Shown piece after piece: positions 49,186-58,136 of a DNA stretch of 64,000 bases. Position 1 is the first letter of the stretch; each line of letters starts with the position of its first letter. A program made the translations under genes and the position numbers. Below the pieces are notes generated by a model. The model was not told where the DNA came from, made no database searches, and saw only the letters and a program-made list of their open reading frames with translations. Origin of the DNA: Phycisphaerae bacterium (GTDB lineage Bacteria > Planctomycetota > Phycisphaerae > UBA1845); the NCBI GenBank assembly GCA_029260075.1, contig JAJDDY010000061.1, forward strand, positions 1-64,000. Direction: 5' to 3'.

Positions 49186-50031
49186 CTACCAGAAAAACCG
49201 AACGCCGATGACGAACCGGACATCAGTCTCGGCCCGGTCATCGGCCACCTCGCGAACAACGGGCAACTGTAGAGACGTTTCCAGGGCCCACCCGTCCCCG
49301 GCGAGCTGCAAACCTGGGGCAAGATAAACCTCATGGCTGCCGTCGGTGCGATACACACCGTTGAGTTCCGCGACCGTGTCGAGCGAGACAACTTGCCCCG
49401 GCGCGTACTTTGCGGGATAGATTCGATAGGACCAAGCGAAGTCATACCGAAGAGCATCGTGGCCAAAATTTCCGGTTCCGGTGTTAATGCGATACAGAAC
49501 GTCAGCGTCCAACCTCGTGCGGTCGGCGCGCCACGACCACGCGAGGCCGACCATCGGGTCGTAACTATCTGTCGTAAAATCTGAATCTCCGGCACGAACG
49601 CTTACGCCGGCTAACAGGGCCAAGCGATTCGTTTCAAGTGTGTCCGTGTCCTGCTGCCAAAAGCGATATTTCACCAGCGCGGTGATGTCGCCGATTCCGT
49701 CATGGGCATCCTCGAAACGCGCCCCCCCCACAGGCGAGACGTCGATCTGCCGATTGTGATACGGCGCGCTCAGAAACAGGGCCATGCGCTCCGTCGCTCC
49801 GTAAACTAACGTACTTCGAAACGTCGAAGCATTGATCTGACCGGCGGCGCCACGTCCCTCTGCTTCGGCATAAATATATTGAAGCCGCAGAACGCCGCCG
49901 CCTTCGCGAGGCGTGAACGCCACGTCCGTATTAATCGGTCCGGCGACAACCGGCGCGACGGCGAGACCGCACAGCAGTACGACAACCGCCGACATCGCCT
50001 GCCGGGTATTCGTTCCACGCAATCGCTTCAT
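49186..50031 (-). CDS. outer-membrane beta-barrel protein between the two selenoprotein genes
   Basis: 281 residues, ATG at 50029-50031, with AAGGAA upstream. A signal peptide (residues 10-31, VVVLLCGLAVAPVVAG) is followed by alternating amphipathic strands (VLRLQYIYAEAEGRG, MALFLSAPYHNRQID, AWSWRADRTRLDADVLYRI, FAWSYRIYPAKYAPGQVV) and a C-terminal aromatic FFW, the usual outer-membrane barrel ending. It resembles the transporter family annotated as MetA-pathway/phenol-degradation-type. The closely spaced HMA lipoprotein gene upstream (28 bp) and the thioredoxin-like gene downstream (105 bp) suggest one operon, so the barrel may admit or expel the metal compound. Its cargo is unknown. Confidence 0.75.
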   Translation of the reverse strand: MKRLRGTNTRQAMSAVVVLLCGLAVAPVVAGPINTDVAFTPREGGGVLRLQYIYAEAEGRGAAGQINASTFRSTLVYGATERMALFLSAPYHNRQIDVSPVGGARFEDAHDGIGDITALVKYRFWQQDTDTLETNRLALLAGVSVRAGDSDFTTDSYDPMVGLAWSWRADRTRLDADVLYRINTGTGNFGHDALRYDFAWSYRIYPAKYAPGQVVSLDTVAELNGVYRTDGSHEVYLAPGLQLAGDGWALETSLQLPVVREVADDRAETDVRFVIGVRFFW

Positions 50032-50059: not shown

Positions 50060-50407
50060 TCATCCACCCTGCTTGGCGTTCTGTATTTCGATCTTTCCGG
50101 ACGTGAACCCTCCGTTCTTGGCGGCCGCCCGCAACCGGGCTTGATCGACTCGCGTTTCCTTAGCAAAGAAAACCGTAGCCTCCCCACTGCCCAAGTCGAA
50201 CGCCACGTGCTCGACACCTTCAACGCGCTCGACCGAGCGCTTAAGCCCGAAGGCTCAGTTGCCTCACGAGACGCCCTTTACGTGCATGACCGCCACGGGA
50301 CCATTCCATGTTTGTGCATCCGGTGCCGCGTCGTGCCGAGATGTCGAACATCCGCCGACCGCCAGCAATCCGGCAGCCGCCATGAGCAAGGGCTGGTATC
50401 GCAACAT
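50060..50407 (-). CDS. HMA-domain lipoprotein with two selenocysteines (U48-x-x-U51)
   Basis: 115 residues when both UGA codons (50264-50266 and 50255-50257) are read as Sec. The ATG is at 50405-50407 with AAGGA 7 bases upstream; TGA at 50060-50062 is the true stop. A lipoprotein signal peptide ends in the lipobox VGGC (Cys20). A full heavy-metal-associated fold follows: VAVMHVKGVS, then U48-Gly-Asn-U51, AFGLKRSVERVEGVEHVAFD, GEATVFFAKET, VDQARLRAAAKNGGF and GKIEI. In ordinary HMA/MerP proteins the same loop is C-x-x-C; here both metal-binding cysteines are replaced by UGA. A single perfect hairpin lies downstream. The two UGAs fall exactly on the two family-defining positions with no other stops, which chance decay would hardly give. 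A soft metal such as Hg(II) is a reasonable but unproven ligand. It is the first gene of the operon. Confidence 0.82.
50225..50240 (-). promoter_or_regulatory. candidate SECIS hairpin of the HMA gene
   Basis: GCGCUC-GGUC-GAGCGC: a perfect 6-bp stem with a GGUC tetraloop in the mRNA. The loop begins 21 bases after the second UGA and 30 after the first, so one hairpin could serve both. The G-G-U-C loop matches, from memory, the apical loop of E. coli fdhF SECIS. Confidence 0.65.
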
Positions 50408-50755
50408 TCACAATTCCTTTCCATACGCGTAGACAAAGCACGCGCGATGACGGGTGCCGCGTGGCGAAGCATAGCTACGGGGCACCATAGCTGCAACGGC
50501 CGCATACGCAACGTTTGCGCGCCTTTTTGGCTTGGATATGACGCGGGAGCTACGGAAGAGCGTCTCTTGAGGTCGTCAGTAGGCGCCTGGCTCAAAGAAC
50601 GGCGGTCATCCGAGCGTCACATGCTTGTATCAGCGATGCTCGTTGCGGCGGCAGTGGAATGTTTGCCACGGTTTCGCCATGGCATGGTGCGTAACGTACA
50701 CGGGTGGAGCGCCGCCAGCACACGAACGTTGCAGCTTGATTCGACCGGCGACTAG
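50408..50755. other. leader region of the selenoprotein operon
   Basis: 348 bp upstream of the HMA gene with no recognised gene on either strand. The minus-strand frames (for example 50592-50801) end in or cross repeat sequence and show no family; on the plus strand a 280-codon frame (49913-50755) runs antisense to the operon and is rejected. It probably holds the operon promoter. Confidence 0.4.
50468..50496 (-). promoter_or_regulatory. candidate promoter of the selenoprotein operon
   Basis: On the minus strand, TTGCAG (50491-50496), 17-base spacer, TATGCT (50468-50473), about 60 bases before the HMA start. Both boxes are moderate matches only. No operator such as a MerR-type dyad was picked out. 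Confidence 0.3.
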
Positions 50756-50899
50756 CGGCCTGTAGAACAAGTGTGGTACCGCCCTCCAGCCAGTGATCCA
50801 ATCGCGATTACCAACTCTTGACGGGGACATTTCCCGTTGTCACGGACGAATTCGCAGCGACGTGATTGAATACCAGCCCTGTTCAACAGACTGCTAGGG
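50756..50899. repeat. dispersed 143-bp repeat, copy 2
   Basis: Matches 18611-18753 from CGGCCTGT to CTGCTAGGG, including the (degenerate) family A hairpin and the TTCAACAGACTGCT end. The final CTA (50894-50896), inside the repeat, is the stop codon of the TPR protein that follows. Confidence 0.8.
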
Positions 50900-52720
50900 A
50901 CGGACGATCAGCCGCTCGCCTTTCGCGCGTTGTTCCGCCGCTTCTTCCACGCGTCCCTGTCGCTCCAGCGCCTCCGACAGTGCCAAGCGAATCCTCGCGG
51001 TATCCGGATCAATCTTCACGGCACGCCGCAGGACGTCAACCGCCTTATCAACGGCATTGCCCCTGAGCAATACGGCACTGAGGCTGACGTAGGTGCGGAC
51101 GTATTCAGGCGTCGTTCGAATGGCCTCACGATAGTGCTTGATAGCTTCTTCGAACCTGCCCTCACGCACGAGCATGTTGCCGAGATCGGACCGGGCCTGC
51201 CCCATCTTCGGATCGAGCCGTACCGTTTCTTCATAGCAGCGGCGAGCGTCGTCAACACGACCCAGAGCAGATAGTGCCTTACCAAGGTTGTAATGGGCCT
51301 CGACGAACTCCGGATCAACTTCAATAGCTCGCCGCAGGGCTTGCTCTGCAGCCGACGGATTGCCTTCATCCAGCCAAGCCCGACCGAGGTTATAGTGCGC
51401 GCGTGCGTTTCCAGGACGAGTCGCAATCACACTTTCCCACATCCGCGTCTCGCTCGCATAGACACGGTTGCGCATGGCTGACGTTAGCGCGAGCGCTGCA
51501 ACGCACAGCCCGGCCAAGCCATGCGTCACGAGTCGCGAACGCCTATCCCCAACCGCCATTCGCCGCAGTATGAATTGGAGGGCGCGATAGGCTCCAATCA
51601 CGACGAGCACGACAACAGCAGCCGATGACAGATACATTCGGTGCTCGAAGAACGGGTCTTTCATCTGGACAATGCTCGACGTGGGCGATAGAACCACGAA
51701 AAACCACGCGACCAGAAACGCAACCGGGCGAAATCTAACCAATACCCAAACAGCGACCACGAGTAGCGAGAGAAAGAAGATCAAATGCGGTACAATCGAG
51801 CCAGCGGCAGAAGCGATCGGCCATTCATAGTCGAGCGACTGCGGGTACGGCCAGAGGGCGAGTCGAAGATATCGCAGCAGGACGCCCGGCTGGGTCATGA
51901 GGTATTCGGTGGGCGTCACGCCGACAAGTGATCGGCCGACGGTACCCACGGTGTTCGCATAGGGGAAAAACGTCTGGCGCACAAACTTCGTCGCAAACAG
52001 TACACCCCAGCTACCCACCAAGCCCACATAGACCCACCAACGCTTCGCCAACATACGGCTCAATGAGCGTGCGAGAAAAGTCCAGTCGAACAACGCCACG
52101 ACGACGGGAATGGTGACAGCAACCGCTTTGCAGCCCATTGCGAGCGCCGAACACACGATCGCAATCAGATACCAATAGACCCCCGACGGTTGTGTGGCGC
52201 CGCGCAGCATGCAATACAATGTCAGAAAATAGAACATCCCCATGAAGGACTCGTAGCGCTGTACCACATAAGTTACACTTTGGGTTTGCAGTGGGTGTAC
52301 ACACCAGGCGCACGCCACCAACAGCGATACAGCGGTAGCGGAAGAACCCCAACGGGCAGCACAAACCGGAAGTGTGAGTGTTCGACGCACAATCCCCAGC
52401 AGTGCTAGCCCGGCCACGAAGTGGATAAGCAGGTTGACCGCATGGTAGCCGGACGGATCGTCTCCGCCGAGCGCATAGTTCACTGCGAAAGTGAGATCAA
52501 CGATCGGGCGCCGACCGGAAAATACATGGCCGAGATCGCTGAGGTCCTGAAGACGTGCATTTTCTAGAATGGATCTTTTGTCGTCAAACAGAAATACGCC
52601 GTCGAAGCTGTTGACGTATGGAATCAGAACAACGAGGCCCAGAAAGACAGCTGGCCAGTAGTGGAACTGGCTCTGGAGTTTCTGGTGTCCATCGGCGAAC
52701 CCGACATACGACGCGTACAT
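50894..52720 (-). CDS. TMTC-like multi-pass membrane protein with TPR repeats (paralogue 1)
   Basis: 608 residues, ATG at 52718-52720. The N-terminal 400 residues hold about ten hydrophobic segments and the family landmark FDGVFLFDDKRSILEN near residue 40, where the Asp-Asp pair is typical of GT-C-type mannosyl-transferase-like proteins. HPLQTQSVTYVVQR and FEHRMYLSSA further match the family. The C-terminal 200 residues are TPR repeats (AHYNLGRAWLDEGN, AHYNLGKALSALGR). The architecture is that of TMTC O-mannosyltransferases and of many planctomycete proteins; the lipid-linked donor and target are unknown. It overlaps the glycosyltransferase gene upstream by one base (TAATG). Confidence 0.8.
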   Translation of the reverse strand: MYASYVGFADGHQKLQSQFHYWPAVFLGLVVLIPYVNSFDGVFLFDDKRSILENARLQDLSDLGHVFSGRRPIVDLTFAVNYALGGDDPSGYHAVNLLIHFVAGLALLGIVRRTLTLPVCAARWGSSATAVSLLVACAWCVHPLQTQSVTYVVQRYESFMGMFYFLTLYCMLRGATQPSGVYWYLIAIVCSALAMGCKAVAVTIPVVVALFDWTFLARSLSRMLAKRWWVYVGLVGSWGVLFATKFVRQTFFPYANTVGTVGRSLVGVTPTEYLMTQPGVLLRYLRLALWPYPQSLDYEWPIASAAGSIVPHLIFFLSLLVVAVWVLVRFRPVAFLVAWFFVVLSPTSSIVQMKDPFFEHRMYLSSAAVVVLVVIGAYRALQFILRRMAVGDRRSRLVTHGLAGLCVAALALTSAMRNRVYASETRMWESVIATRPGNARAHYNLGRAWLDEGNPSAAEQALRRAIEVDPEFVEAHYNLGKALSALGRVDDARRCYEETVRLDPKMGQARSDLGNMLVREGRFEEAIKHYREAIRTTPEYVRTYVSLSAVLLRGNAVDKAVDVLRRAVKIDPDTARIRLALSEALERQGRVEEAAEQRAKGERLIVRP

Positions 52721-53730
52721 TATTCACCTCGCAACGGAGGTCCGCCGCGTCCGGATCGAAGTTTGGCGAACACGCCGTGGACCATGCCCACGCCGCGCCA
52801 GTACGAACGAAGGAAACCCATAATCCCAAAACACACGTATCGAGTGTTCTTCATGCGACGGACGAGTTTCAGAGTCATTGGGACTTGCGCTAGCACGAGC
52901 AGTATGACCAGTCCGACCGGAACGGATAGGGGCATTGTGACCGGCAACTCGACCAGAACAAGTGGAGCGATCAAGAGGGTAAGGACTGCGACCAGCGGTT
53001 GCATGTGATCGAGAAGGCTGCTGTAGGAATCGCCTGTGTCATGACCGGAATGTGAAAGGTGAAGGAAAACGCGCCAATAGCCTTGACGTCGCTGGGTGCG
53101 AAGGTATTGCGACCAACGCGTATTGTGAAAGTGTTTGACGCGCGACTCGCCCACAAAACGTAATTCATAACCCGCATCCATCACCCGAAATGAAAACTCG
53201 GCGTCTTCGGCCATGATGTACCCTTCATGGAAACCGGAGAGCTCTTCGAGAATCGCGCGACGATACAACACGTTGAACGTGGCCAAGAAGTCGACGCGTT
53301 TCGGCATGCTCTGGTGTCGCTCGATAATCTCTTCGTGAATCAAACACGCCAGCAGCGACCCCGTGTTCATGTTGCCATAGCTACCACTCACACCACCCGT
53401 GACAGCGTCCCGCATTTGCGGAAGGAGTAGAGCGAGCGCGTCCGGCTCGGCCACACAGTCAGAATCGATAAACCAAACCAACGGGGTCTGGGCGTGGCGC
53501 CAACCGACGTTTCGCGCCGCCGCGGGACCGCGACCCTGGCCCTTGAGGCATGTAACCGGGAATTCACGGACAATGTTCGCGGTGTCGTCGGTTGATCCGT
53601 CGTCGACGAAAATGATTTCCCGCAACACACCCTGATCAATCAATGGCGCGACAGAAGAGAGGCACTGGCGGATGGTCGCCGCGCAGTTGCGCCCTGGAAT
53701 CACCAGACTGATTGGCTCGGCGTCAGCCAT
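52720..53730 (-). CDS. family 2 glycosyltransferase with membrane segments
   Basis: 336 residues, ATG at 53728-53730. GT2 core with the nucleotide-binding strands ISLVIPGRNCAATI, REIIFVDDGSTDDTA and the DxD in WFIDSDCVAEPD; acceptor site motif EDAEFSFRVMDAGYE and the TRWSQYLRTQRRQGYW region fit the EpsE/ExoM type. Two hydrophobic segments near 240-285 probably anchor it to the inner membrane. It is co-transcribed and overlaps the TMTC-like gene by one base. A sugar for a surface polymer or glycoprotein is likely. Confidence 0.88.
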   Translation of the reverse strand: MADAEPISLVIPGRNCAATIRQCLSSVAPLIDQGVLREIIFVDDGSTDDTANIVREFPVTCLKGQGRGPAAARNVGWRHAQTPLVWFIDSDCVAEPDALALLLPQMRDAVTGGVSGSYGNMNTGSLLACLIHEEIIERHQSMPKRVDFLATFNVLYRRAILEELSGFHEGYIMAEDAEFSFRVMDAGYELRFVGESRVKHFHNTRWSQYLRTQRRQGYWRVFLHLSHSGHDTGDSYSSLLDHMQPLVAVLTLLIAPLVLVELPVTMPLSVPVGLVILLVLAQVPMTLKLVRRMKNTRYVCFGIMGFLRSYWRGVGMVHGVFAKLRSGRGGPPLRGE

Positions 53731-54042
53731 CGTAGTAGCACAATCCCGCTATTGAATACATGAGCATTGCCCATCGCCGAGCCGCGTGCGTTGGGTTCCA
53801 CGGCCAAGCGCAGCGCGACCATGTGCTCCGTGGGCCAAAACATGCTGCCGATTTCGGTTTGGACATACCAAACCAACAACGCGCGAGCATTTCTTGACAC
53901 ACCACTAGATTCGTACGGCTCGTCTCGATCATTCGCATTAGCTTTCTTACCATTGACGCCACGGGGAATATATCGGCCTATCGACACACGGCCAACAGCG
54001 TGCTTCGGTGAAGCGTCGTCTGTCTGCCGCACGTATCGACTA
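53731..54042. other. unresolved 312-bp segment between glycosyltransferase and TMTC-like paralogue 2
   Basis: A 110-codon minus-strand frame (53700-54032) overlaps the glycosyltransferase start by 31 bases and has the phrases RALLVWYVQTEIGSMF and EHMVALRLAVEPNARGSA. I cannot assign a family; a small membrane-linked partner or a remnant of a larger gene are both possible. Another frame (53723-53962) overlaps it. Confidence 0.25.
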
Positions 54043-55947
54043 TCAGTCCCGGTCGCCGTCGTCGAGGCGATCGAGAATTCTCTTGCGCTGTCTTATCGCG
54101 TCCGCGTTCTCGGGGTTGATGGCCAACGCACGATCGACGTAGGGCAACGCCTCCTGCGGTCGCCCACGGATATTCAAGAGATACGCCAGTTGCACCAACG
54201 CTCGTTCATACTTCGGCCACCGCTCGACGGCCAACTCGTAGTGCGTCAGCGCTCCATCCAAATCGCCCGCGCGGCCGACAGCACTTCCGAGATTGTAGTG
54301 GGCGTTGGCAAGAAGTTTTCTGTTGGCGAACTGTGGCGCGATCTCCGTCGCCTCGCGATAGGCGTCCATCGCTTCTTCGCTGCGACCGAGCGCGTCGAGG
54401 GCGTGCCCCAAATTGGTTCGCGCCTCGACGTGCTCGGGATCCTGCCGAGCGACTTGGCGATACTGCCGTTCCGCCTTGACCGGTTGATTCGTCTCCATCA
54501 ACGCGTTGCCTAGATTCATTCGCGCCGAGACGAAGTCCGGCTCGAGCACCAACGCTTTTCGAAACTCCCGGATCGCCTCGCTCCTTCGGTTCAGTTGTAC
54601 GAGCGCCGTGCCGAGATGCTGAAGCGCCCGGGCGTTGTTCGGCCTCTTCGAGACGACGTCTCGCCACATGGATTCCTTGGACTGATACGTCTCAGTGCGC
54701 CGAGCCGTTCGCATAACAAGTGTCGTGGTAACCGTGCCAACGACGATCGCCACACCGACACCGGCGGACATCCGCGAACACGCGATCCGGTGACGCAACA
54801 GAGTCACTACGTGAGCGCCGGCGATCACCACAAGCGTTACGATACCCGCCAGCGGCAAGTACATACGGTGCTCGAACATCGCGTCCTTGATGGGGATGAT
54901 CGTGGAGGTCGGCGCCAGGACTAACCACGGGCTGATGCATACGAACCCGATCGCCGGTCGTTTGGCAAGCAACCAGAAGGATGCAGCCACGAGCGAGACG
55001 ATGACCAGCGCAGCCGGTGCGATCGCGCCAAGCGTTTCTGCGGTCGGCCATTGATAGTCAAGACAGAGCGGGTACGGCCAGAGCGACAGCTTGAGGTATT
55101 CCACCAAGACACCGAACTGCGTCAATGCATACTGCAACGGCGTCGTCCCTTCCAGGCTAAAGCCTGAACTCGCGCCAACGGTTTTCGTCCCCAAGACGCT
55201 CGGTACGACGCCGCGTACAAAAAGTATCGCTAACGTCGCGGTCAAACCCGCGTACGCCGGCCAGCGACGTTTCACGACATCGCGCCATGACGCGGCCAGA
55301 AATATCCGATCGTATGCCAGGATGACGATCGGCGCCGTCGCCATCACAGCCTTGGAACCCATGCCCAGCGCGCACACGACGATCGCGATAACATACCACC
55401 CCACCGGACGCGAGGAACCGGCGCCACGAATGACACAATAGAGCGTGAGCAGATAGAACAACGCCATCATGGACTCGGCACGCTGGATGCAATAGTTCAC
55501 GCTCTGCGTCTGAAGCGGATGCACCACCCAAACCAACGCGACGACAAACGCCATCCAATGCGCATCGAATCCGTAACGATGGCTTAGTCGCGGGGTGAGC
55601 AGCGTTCGGCGTACGACGCCAAGAAGCGTGAGGGCTGCGGCCAAGTGAACCGCCAGGTTGACTACGAGATAACCTCGCGGATTCAAGTCGCCGTAGGCAT
55701 AGTTCACCGCCAACGTCAGATCAACAACCGGTCGCGTCTTGGAGAGCACCGTCGACAACGACGACAGGTCCCGGATACGGGTATTGTTGATGATTTGGGC
55801 CAGATCATCGAATAGGAACACGCCGTCGCCAATGCCGGAATAGGCGATCAAGCCAGCGATCAACACCATCGCCGGCGCCGCAAACCGGCTCCACGCAGAC
55901 CAGCCTTCTACCTGTTCCACTGTCGCTGCGGCCGCGCGAGTTGTCAC
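54043..55947 (-). CDS. TMTC-like membrane/TPR protein (paralogue 2)
   Basis: 634 residues from a GTG at 55945-55947, whose GTGA overlaps the stop of the upstream paralogue. It has the same plan: SGIGDGVFLFDDLAQII near residue 45, HPLQTQSVNYCIQRAESMM near 160, about ten membrane segments and FEHRMYLPLAG near 360. Five or more TPR repeats fill the C-terminal 210 residues (LQHLGTALVQLNR, ARTNLGHALDALGR, AHYNLGSAVGRAGD). It may be a glycosyltransferase-like protein with a TPR docking domain. Sequence identity to the other two copies looks moderate, so the duplication is not recent. Confidence 0.8.
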   Translation of the reverse strand: MTTRAAAATVEQVEGWSAWSRFAAPAMVLIAGLIAYSGIGDGVFLFDDLAQIINNTRIRDLSSLSTVLSKTRPVVDLTLAVNYAYGDLNPRGYLVVNLAVHLAAALTLLGVVRRTLLTPRLSHRYGFDAHWMAFVVALVWVVHPLQTQSVNYCIQRAESMMALFYLLTLYCVIRGAGSSRPVGWYVIAIVVCALGMGSKAVMATAPIVILAYDRIFLAASWRDVVKRRWPAYAGLTATLAILFVRGVVPSVLGTKTVGASSGFSLEGTTPLQYALTQFGVLVEYLKLSLWPYPLCLDYQWPTAETLGAIAPAALVIVSLVAASFWLLAKRPAIGFVCISPWLVLAPTSTIIPIKDAMFEHRMYLPLAGIVTLVVIAGAHVVTLLRHRIACSRMSAGVGVAIVVGTVTTTLVMRTARRTETYQSKESMWRDVVSKRPNNARALQHLGTALVQLNRRSEAIREFRKALVLEPDFVSARMNLGNALMETNQPVKAERQYRQVARQDPEHVEARTNLGHALDALGRSEEAMDAYREATEIAPQFANRKLLANAHYNLGSAVGRAGDLDGALTHYELAVERWPKYERALVQLAYLLNIRGRPQEALPYVDRALAINPENADAIRQRKRILDRLDDGDRD

Positions 55948-58136
55948 ATCCCACCTTCTTCCGACGAGGTTGATGCGTTCACTCGATCAAACGCTCGGCG
56001 CGCCCCCTCGTGATTCGGTCGCGCACGCAACACGAATCGAAACCGCTCTATGGCTTCGCTGGTTCGTCCTAGTCTTTCCAGCGCCAACCCGAGCTCGTAG
56101 TGTGTCTCGATGTGTTGCGGACGGGTCTGTAACGCTTCTCGATAGTGCTGGATCGCTTCGCTCGGCCTGCCAAGGTGGAGTAGACATCCGCCCAGGTTGA
56201 ATTGGGCCTGAGAAAACCCAGGCTTGATCTCGATCGCTCGCTCGAAGTAAGGCACCGCCTCTTTCATCTGATCTTGCGACGCAAACACGATCGCCAATCC
56301 GTTGTTCGCATTGGCCGACCCAGGATTAAGGGCAAGAGCACGCCAGAACGCCTGCCTCGCTTCATCAGCTTGACCTATGGAAAGCAGCGCCGTGCCGAGG
56401 TTGGACCACCCGGAGTCGTGCTCTGGATCGAGTGCCACAAGATCGCGGTACTCACGAATCGCCTCGTCGCGGCGTTTCAAGGAAAACAACACACCGCCAA
56501 GTCCCAACCGGGCATGAAGATTATCTGGTTGGATGCGCTTTGCCGTCCGGTACGACAATACGGCTTCTTCCAAGCGACCGGTGTCTCTAAGCACATTGCC
56601 GAGGTTTACATGCGCTCGGTCCAGGGTCGAGCGAAGGCGCACGGCCTCGCGAAACTGAAACTCAGCGTCGGACATGCGACCATCCGCTACGTACGCAAAA
56701 CCTAATCCGTTTCGCACTTCGGCCGATTTCGGCGTGATGACCACGGCCTTCTCCAAGGCATCGAGGGCTTCGGTCAGCTTGCCCTCCGCCAACAACGCTG
56801 TCCCAAAGTTTTCTGCAGCACGCGGGTTCTTCGGTCGCTTCGTCCAGACGTCGCGCCACATACCGGATTCGCTCAGGTACATACGATTGCGCGCGTGCGT
56901 AGCGCCAGCCAGCGACGCCGACGCCAGAACCGCCACACCAAGCGACACGATACGCAACGTGGTCTCACCTAATTCGAGTCGGCACCTCAGCCAATGCAGC
57001 ACGTAGTTCACAGCCAGCACGCCGGCGACAGCCACCGCAGCCAACGACAGATACATCCGGTGTTCAAATGCCGGATCTTCAATGGGTATGACGGAGGACG
57101 TCGGCGCAAGGATCAGAAAAAACCATAGACCGATGAATCCCAACGCGGGGCGTCGAGCACATGCCCACGCCGTGGCGAGGAGCATGCCCACGATCAACAA
57201 TCCAGGCAATACTACGTCGACGGCGGTATGCGCGATGGGCCAATCGTAATCCAAACACAACGCCCTCGGCCAGATGGACAGGCGGACGTAGTGCAACAAT
57301 ACACCAGCCTCGGTGAACAAGTAGTCGAGCGCAGAGATGCCCTTGACCGAGAAGCCGACGTTCGTATTTCGCGCCTCCGGGCTGAGCACGCCGGGTACGA
57401 GCCCGGACGCCCAGATGATCGCCCATGTACTCGCCAATCCCGCATACAGCACCGCGCGACGTTTCAACAGACTTACGAACGACCGCGAAAGAAACATCCG
57501 GTCATACAGCAAGACGACAACCGGCGCGGTTATCATGATCGCCTTGCTGGACATACCCAATGCGCAGACGACTACCGTGCCGATCGACCAGACCATCGGG
57601 CGCCGTGAGCCGGCGGTGCGGATGACGCCGTAGAGCGTGAGCATATAGAACAAGCCCATCATCGACTCCGCCCGTTGGATCAAGTACGTCACGCCCTGAG
57701 TGAGCAGCGGATGGGCGACCCAGATCGCTGACGTCGCAAGGGCGAGTGATACGGCTGATCGATGAAAACGACCGTCGAATCGTTTCAACAGCAGGGTTCG
57801 ACGCACGACGCCATAGAGCGTCAACGCGGCCAGGAGATGAACGGTGAGGTTGAACAGATGGTAGCCCCACACGTCTCGCTGCCCGATCGCGTAGTTGACA
57901 GCAAGCGAATAGTCGACCGCCGGACGGTTTCTACGAAGCGCTTGCCATAGTGGCCACAGTTCCTTGATGCGGCGGTGCCCGAGAATGTGCAGTCGATCGT
58001 CGAATAGGAATCCACCGTCAAAGCTCGTCCAATACGCCGTACCGCCCAGCGCCACAATCAGCGCCGGCGCGATGATGCGTCTCAGCGCCGATCCACCCTG
58101 CTCGGTCATGTTGATTTCTGATCGCATCCTGGACAT
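55944..58136 (-). CDS. TMTC-like membrane/TPR protein (paralogue 3)
   Basis: 730 residues, ATG at 58134-58136 (GGAAGATAGTGG upstream) or an internal ATG at 58109. The largest of the three paralogues: the landmark FDGGFLFDDRLHIL lies near residue 45, HPLLTQGVTYLIQRAESMM near 165, and a long TPR array (about residues 430-715) has some eight repeats (AAENFGTALLAEGK, AHVNLGNVLRDTGR, SNLGTALLSIGQADEA, AQFNLGGCLLHLGR). It overlaps the next gene by 4 bases (GTGA), so paralogues 3 and 2 are translationally coupled. Membrane-embedded, with a TPR part likely in the periplasm. Confidence 0.8.
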   Translation of the reverse strand: MSRMRSEINMTEQGGSALRRIIAPALIVALGGTAYWTSFDGGFLFDDRLHILGHRRIKELWPLWQALRRNRPAVDYSLAVNYAIGQRDVWGYHLFNLTVHLLAALTLYGVVRRTLLLKRFDGRFHRSAVSLALATSAIWVAHPLLTQGVTYLIQRAESMMGLFYMLTLYGVIRTAGSRRPMVWSIGTVVVCALGMSSKAIMITAPVVVLLYDRMFLSRSFVSLLKRRAVLYAGLASTWAIIWASGLVPGVLSPEARNTNVGFSVKGISALDYLFTEAGVLLHYVRLSIWPRALCLDYDWPIAHTAVDVVLPGLLIVGMLLATAWACARRPALGFIGLWFFLILAPTSSVIPIEDPAFEHRMYLSLAAVAVAGVLAVNYVLHWLRCRLELGETTLRIVSLGVAVLASASLAGATHARNRMYLSESGMWRDVWTKRPKNPRAAENFGTALLAEGKLTEALDALEKAVVITPKSAEVRNGLGFAYVADGRMSDAEFQFREAVRLRSTLDRAHVNLGNVLRDTGRLEEAVLSYRTAKRIQPDNLHARLGLGGVLFSLKRRDEAIREYRDLVALDPEHDSGWSNLGTALLSIGQADEARQAFWRALALNPGSANANNGLAIVFASQDQMKEAVPYFERAIEIKPGFSQAQFNLGGCLLHLGRPSEAIQHYREALQTRPQHIETHYELGLALERLGRTSEAIERFRFVLRARPNHEGARRAFDRVNASTSSEEGGM

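Follow-up and report, generated by a model that had tools for sequence, protein, structure and literature searches.

What does a bacterial HMA domain do with UGA codons at both of the positions where such domains have their metal-binding cysteines? A sequence-only reading had picked out such a frame in DNA from a Phycisphaerae bacterium and proposed that it encodes a selenoprotein, with selenocysteine (Sec, U) in a UxxU motif suited to soft metals such as mercury. The window, by which we mean the whole 64,000-nucleotide stretch analyzed, is part of contig 58 in a 4.92-Mb genome that is 97% complete. Features are collected in Table 1.

The frame encodes a predicted HMA lipoprotein

The earlier reading gave no strand for the frame. 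It lies on the minus strand (50407..50060), with its ATG at 50407-50405 and its UGA stop at 50062-50060; reading 50060-50407 on the plus strand yields an unrelated frame. The 115-residue product (MLRYQPLLMAAAGLLAVGGCSTSRHDAAPDAQTWNGPVAVMHVKGVSUGNUAFGLKRSVERVEGVEHVAFDLGSGEATVFFAKETRVDQARLRAAAKNGGFTSGKIEIQNAKQGG) is interrupted by in-frame UGAs at codons 48 and 51 only, and these fall, as had been claimed, at the HMA metal positions. A lipobox signal peptide and a good ribosome-binding site had likewise been reported, and we found both. The signal peptide ends in VGGC, with Gly19 and Cys20 invariant among 15 members of the family, and by this lipobox signal peptide the protein is a predicted lipoprotein.

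The complete HMA fold also held up. With U replaced by Cys for the domain and structure programs, the product matched Pfam HMA (PF00403) at 32.0 bits versus a cutoff of 24.8. An AlphaFold2 model, built with 12 relatives, shows its strands and helices in the HMA order (E38-44, H49-60, E65-71, E76-81, H89-98, E102-109), with pLDDT values of 84 to 93 in the core domain blocks and 71 in residues 31 to 40; residues 48 to 51 (UxxU) open the first helix. The top PDB matches found by Foldseek are HMA domains, including MerP (1osd, oxidized, and 1afi), ATP7B, and CopZ. An Rfam scan at gathering thresholds and a tRNA scan of the window gave no matches.

Table 1. Positions of the Sec-HMA gene, its elements, and its neighbors in the window, with the related loci that carry the small lipoprotein gene
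Feature	Position	Strand	Remarks
Sec-HMA lipoprotein gene	50060..50407	-	115 codons + TGA stop; MLRYQPLLMAAAGLLAVGGC...GVSUGNUAFGLKRSVERVEGV...
Ribosome-binding site AAAGGA	50415..50420	-	7 nt 5' of ATG, read from sequence
Lipobox VGGC, Cys20	50348..50359	-	Cys20 invariant across the Sec family
HMA domain, residues 38-109	50081..50296	-	beta-alpha-beta-beta-alpha-beta; Pfam, AlphaFold2 model, PDB matches
UGA codon 48	50264..50266	-	Predicted first Sec of UxxU; first HMA metal-binding Cys position
UGA codon 51	50255..50257	-	Predicted second Sec of UxxU
SECIS-type hairpin GCGCUC-GGUC-GAGCGC	50225..50240	-	Loop starts 20 nt past second UGA, 29 nt past first
Partner gene, 281-aa outer membrane beta-barrel channel (FapF/COG4313-like)	49186..50031	-	Begins 28 nt past Sec-HMA stop
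Second selenoprotein gene (predicted), Trx-like, 216 codons	48430..49080	-	UGA codon 70 (SPTUPGC, UxxC); after channel gene, same direction
GCLGPNPGFF lipoprotein loci	L056, L057, L059, L061-L063, L065-L067, L069		~300-1000 nt past first Sec-HMA motif

Both UGA codons are almost certainly read as selenocysteine

Perhaps the two UGAs are simply stops, as in the standard code, and the locus is a pseudogene or a gene for a 47-residue peptide? We searched 150 related genomes and read the motifs by eye from the translations. This yielded UxxU in 12 further gene copies and CxxU in three, from the same taxonomic order, and CxxC (mostly of the CPLC type) in 18. All close relatives of the window gene come from MAGs, and some of the counts of stops inside relatives reflect a genuine stop or read-through past a stop, as in the CPLC protein at L034. 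Among the 16 tabulated Sec-type copies, the first position is UGA in 13 and a Cys codon in 3, while the second is UGA in every copy. The sequence-only reading had argued that random nonsense mutations would not be expected at just these codons and had suggested examining homologs there. Only Cys or Sec was found at the two positions: in Sec-type relatives UGA occupies the same two columns, and the other homologs have only Cys. Hence, the UGA pair is not a product of chance.

The SECIS-type hairpin of the window folds into a 6-bp stem. A stem-loop with a GGUC loop 20 nt past the second UGA occurs in all 16 window-type copies (13 UxxU, the window included, and three CxxU); its five core pairs are kept, and 95.8% of cells in the alignment are paired overall. 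The loop is similar to that at the apex of the E. coli fdhF SECIS, which likewise contains GGUC. CxxC relatives have no SECIS hairpin. In a 16-copy codon table (without L032 but with L107, a CxxU protein whose hairpin differs), the hairpin codons are fixed (TCG in 15/15, GTC in 15/15, and GAG in 14/14); elsewhere, conserved Val, Gly, Ala, and Leu columns draw on at least four codons each, the Gly and Val columns on all four. CxxC relatives have KQLLK, DQQLM, and similar peptides where the Sec forms have RSVER, and so the RSVER peptide is dictated by the hairpin. At L040, both strands of the stem are changed (GAGCUC-GGUC-GGGCUC): replacement of C-G by A-U plus a wobble pair keeps the stem, and the peptide is altered from RSVER to SSVGL. 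Formal covariation is weak, the observed score being reached by 31 of 500 shuffles, because the hairpin hardly varies at all. Against shuffles, the window hairpin likewise has a modest z-score (-1.24). A distant group in the phylum has other hairpins after its UPIU motif.

For three close pairs from genus g10, substitutions downstream of the hairpin numbered 9/8/26, 9/7/26, and 5/4/26 at codon positions 1/2/3. This third-position bias after the UGAs is the pattern of translated sequence. The genome also carries selA, selB, selC, and selD, genes for which the earlier reading had recommended a search: selA (570 bits) and selB (337.7 bits) adjoin each other on contig 4, selD (370.2 bits) has an in-frame UGA of its own, and tRNA-Sec (selC), with anticodon UCA, scores 69.4 bits on contig 85 versus a gathering threshold of 47.

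That the window hairpin is unexceptional against shuffles is in keeping with ordinary stops. However, 12 further double-UGA copies, frozen SECIS codons, the third-position bias, and a full set of Sec machinery contradict that explanation, and we rejected it as highly improbable. Reassignment of UGA to another amino acid, under a changed code, would also place UGA inside conserved frames. Yet here the internal UGAs are followed by a SECIS and replace Cys only, no such hairpin was noted after the terminal UGA of the same gene, the neighboring frames stay open under table 11 and end at normal stops, and tRNA-Sec, selA, selB, and selD are all present. This explanation is contradicted too, and we give it practically no credence. 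We conclude that the UxxU HMA gene is almost certainly a genuine selenoprotein gene, with two Sec in place of two Cys; the selenoprotein reading is thus upheld, since neither of the two findings that it had named as refuting it came up, and the conserved SECIS hairpin adds direct support at the RNA level. SelB and tRNA-Sec would decode both UGAs, with a single downstream hairpin as guide. Standard annotation halts at the first UGA, so such genes would be missed.

Cys and Sec forms both occur among planctomycete HMA lipoproteins

Like HMA lipoproteins in the wider phylum carry UPIU/UPMU, UIPU, USPU, CPFU, CLFU, and UxxC (UMSC, UASC, UGGC) motifs; one protein, L175 (G405), has UGIKU, a UxxxU spacing with one extra residue. 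The HMA tree (74 columns) is poorly resolved; the four Cys/Sec states require no fewer than nine changes on it, and the CxxC group falls on a separate branch, save for one CxxU member. A collection-wide scan for UGA/Cys-x-x-UGA followed by a hairpin returned 31 stretches, with HMA genes only among those from Planctomycetota/Phycisphaerae. The remaining stretches held unrelated frames and were taken as chance. The series of CC, CU, UC, and UU forms on related scaffolds makes the effect of selenium for sulfur on soft-metal affinity directly measurable.

One genome, G038, has a tandem pair of UxxU genes (L063), and at L069 (G025) a second Sec-HMA match lies ~0.5 kb off. Further planctomycete HMA proteins were seen at L123, L179, L180, L181, and L175, of the UxxC type apart from the one UxxxU.

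An outer membrane channel gene adjoins the HMA gene

The protein encoded by the gene that follows the Sec-HMA gene starts with a signal peptide and is predicted to form a beta-barrel (PF13557, 38.1 bits versus a cutoff of 22). Its model has 13 predicted strands, and its best structure matches are FapF and the COG4313 channel 4rl8. The fold is shared with these channels (PDB 4rl8 and 5o65), but identity is only 11 to 14%. We know of no metal-linked function for COG4313 or FapF, and neither the metal nor the direction of transport follows from the channel family.

Each of the 15 Sec loci (the window plus L056 to L069) has a channel homolog adjoining its HMA gene. So do the 18 CxxC lipoprotein loci: the 16 that were tabulated carry it downstream and on the same strand, and L042 and L051 are the other two. 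Since the channel gene is adjacent in Cys and Sec loci, the partnership is common to both forms. In the distant UPIU group, the channel gene lies upstream of the HMA gene. Among 37 other HMA or Sec-HMA loci, a channel was found in four, three of which are members of this lipoprotein HMA group. In most Sec loci, the Sec-HMA and channel genes are separated by a gene for a ~60-aa lipoprotein (GCLGPNPGFF). It is missing from the window, G036, G043, and G009, and neither Pfam nor NCBIfam gave a match for the one from L056.

The HMA gene stands beside an outer membrane channel gene in nearly all related genomes examined, and for this reason we propose that the Sec-HMA protein is probably a selenium-based soft-metal trap at the outer membrane. 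The product would be a lipid-anchored periplasmic HMA protein with a Sec-x-x-Sec metal loop, probably held on the outer membrane's inner face, alongside the beta-barrel channel. Under the E. coli sorting rule, the Ser after Cys20 suggests outer membrane placement, although planctomycetes may not follow that rule. Compared with two thiolates, two selenolates would hold Hg(II), Cu(I), or like soft ions more tightly, and the metal might then pass to or from the channel, as an exit or entry path, in metal defense or export. The linked channel gene provides a testable partner for the lipoprotein. On balance, we favor a Sec-decoded, lipid-anchored UxxU HMA protein that acts as a MerP/CopZ-type soft-metal binder beside an outer membrane channel. 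Our confidence is evenly divided over a broader proposal, namely, that Planctomycetota have a two-part outer membrane metal system in which selenium replaces sulfur at one or both ligands and UxxU forms a dedicated, nonredox bis-selenolate site.

Relation to known Sec and HMA families

A metal-binding HMA selenoprotein with UxxU has been listed before (NF041115; PMC13188914, PMC9312934), and a 2026 review names NF041115, UxxU_metal_bind, as a "putative mercuric reductase" with UxxU and 2 Sec (PMC13188914). Like the window protein, NF041115 has an HMA domain in which both metal positions are Sec. However, the window protein scores 33.8 bits, below the NF041115 cutoff of 95, and that model covers 74 positions of HMA domain and nothing else; the window protein is a lipoprotein paired with an outer membrane channel. 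The window gene is a member of a different subfamily, linked to the lipoprotein/outer membrane channel arrangement. The source behind NF041115 is presumably the 2007 Olavius symbiont paper. We looked for NF041115 in the class of Desulfonema magnum (192 genomes) and in four locus genomes, and no match exceeded the cutoff.

MerP (TIGR02052) is likewise a periplasmic HMA protein and is among the best PDB matches noted above, but the window protein reaches only 29.8 bits versus a cutoff of 92.55, and the predicted lipid anchor belongs to the window protein. No mer operon was recognized in the window; MerT-type genes lie near the Sec-HMA gene in three relatives. A "mercuric transport protein MerP" selenoprotein was described from GOS seawater reads, in an account that does not give the Sec motif (PMC2398784). 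NF045683, MerT_CopZ_Se (MerT/CopZ fusion-like heavy metal transport selenoprotein), also has Sec in an HMA/MerT transport context, but the window protein has no MerT part and scores 27.2 bits versus 375. The Planctomycetota CxxC HMA lipoproteins (L030 to L118) have the same architecture and the same channel neighbor but carry Cys and no SECIS. Our literature search, which lay mostly outside subscription papers, found no report of the lipoprotein/channel-linked form, its CxxU/UxxC intermediates, or its SECIS.

Neighboring genes bear on metal binding versus redox chemistry

The Trx-like selenoprotein gene is a probable third member of the cluster. Its product has no Pfam or NCBIfam match, and 18 other genomes encode relatives, most of them with a single UGA in frame. 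Two Sec residues could just as well pair as a diselenide, and we wondered if the Sec pair might do redox work instead of holding metal, with a diselenide acting on the channel, on the Trx-like selenoprotein, or on peroxides. Most known selenoproteins are oxidoreductases (PMC13188914, PMC9312934), the Trx-like UxxC protein is encoded two genes downstream, and CxxU and UxxC forms are present in the family. Nevertheless, the fold is that of HMA and not thioredoxin-like, and the CxxC of HMA domains is a metal site. Moreover, the Trx-like gene is near the Sec-HMA gene in only 2 of 15 loci (the window and G069), and several relatives adjoin MerR, MerT-HMA, P-type ATPase, or RND genes. We consider a redox role unlikely and, like the sequence-only reading, favor a metal site at UxxU, with mercury as a candidate metal. 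Understood selenoproteins are nearly all redox enzymes, and a noncatalytic two-selenolate metal site, if true, would be a distinct use of selenium.

The metal-related neighbors lie within ~6 kb in four relatives. Genes for zf_CopZ-MerT-HMA proteins are near the Sec-HMA gene in G069, G021, and G005, accompanied by MerR in G021 and G005; the G069 locus also has an HMA P-type ATPase gene and the G050 locus an RND efflux gene. Among the neighbors close to the Sec-HMA gene in the window, no metal-resistance or mer gene was recognized. Elsewhere in the same genome, on contig 69 (L168, 3064-12381), two Trx-like selenoprotein paralogs lie in an arsenic/mercury-type island with genes for an ArsR regulator, ACR3, an LMWP-type ArsC, a zf_CopZ-MerT-HMA protein, and a thioredoxin.

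Could the metal be copper? The protein might then serve copper supply or scavenging, rather than dealing with mercury or other toxic metals, and the barrel would be an uptake channel. Copper HMA domains make up most of the nearest sequence relatives in the PDB, and one relative of the gene stands beside an RND efflux gene. MerT-type genes beside three relatives and beside the genome's own Trx-like paralogs argue against such a copper role, which we regard as a somewhat doubtful alternative to a trap for mercury or other toxic soft metals.

On the other side of the Sec-HMA gene, window positions 50894-58136 on the minus strand encode three large proteins in a row, of 608, 634, and 730 aa, which have the look of membrane-plus-TPR paralogs; a glycosyltransferase-like gene lies between those for the 608- and 634-aa proteins.
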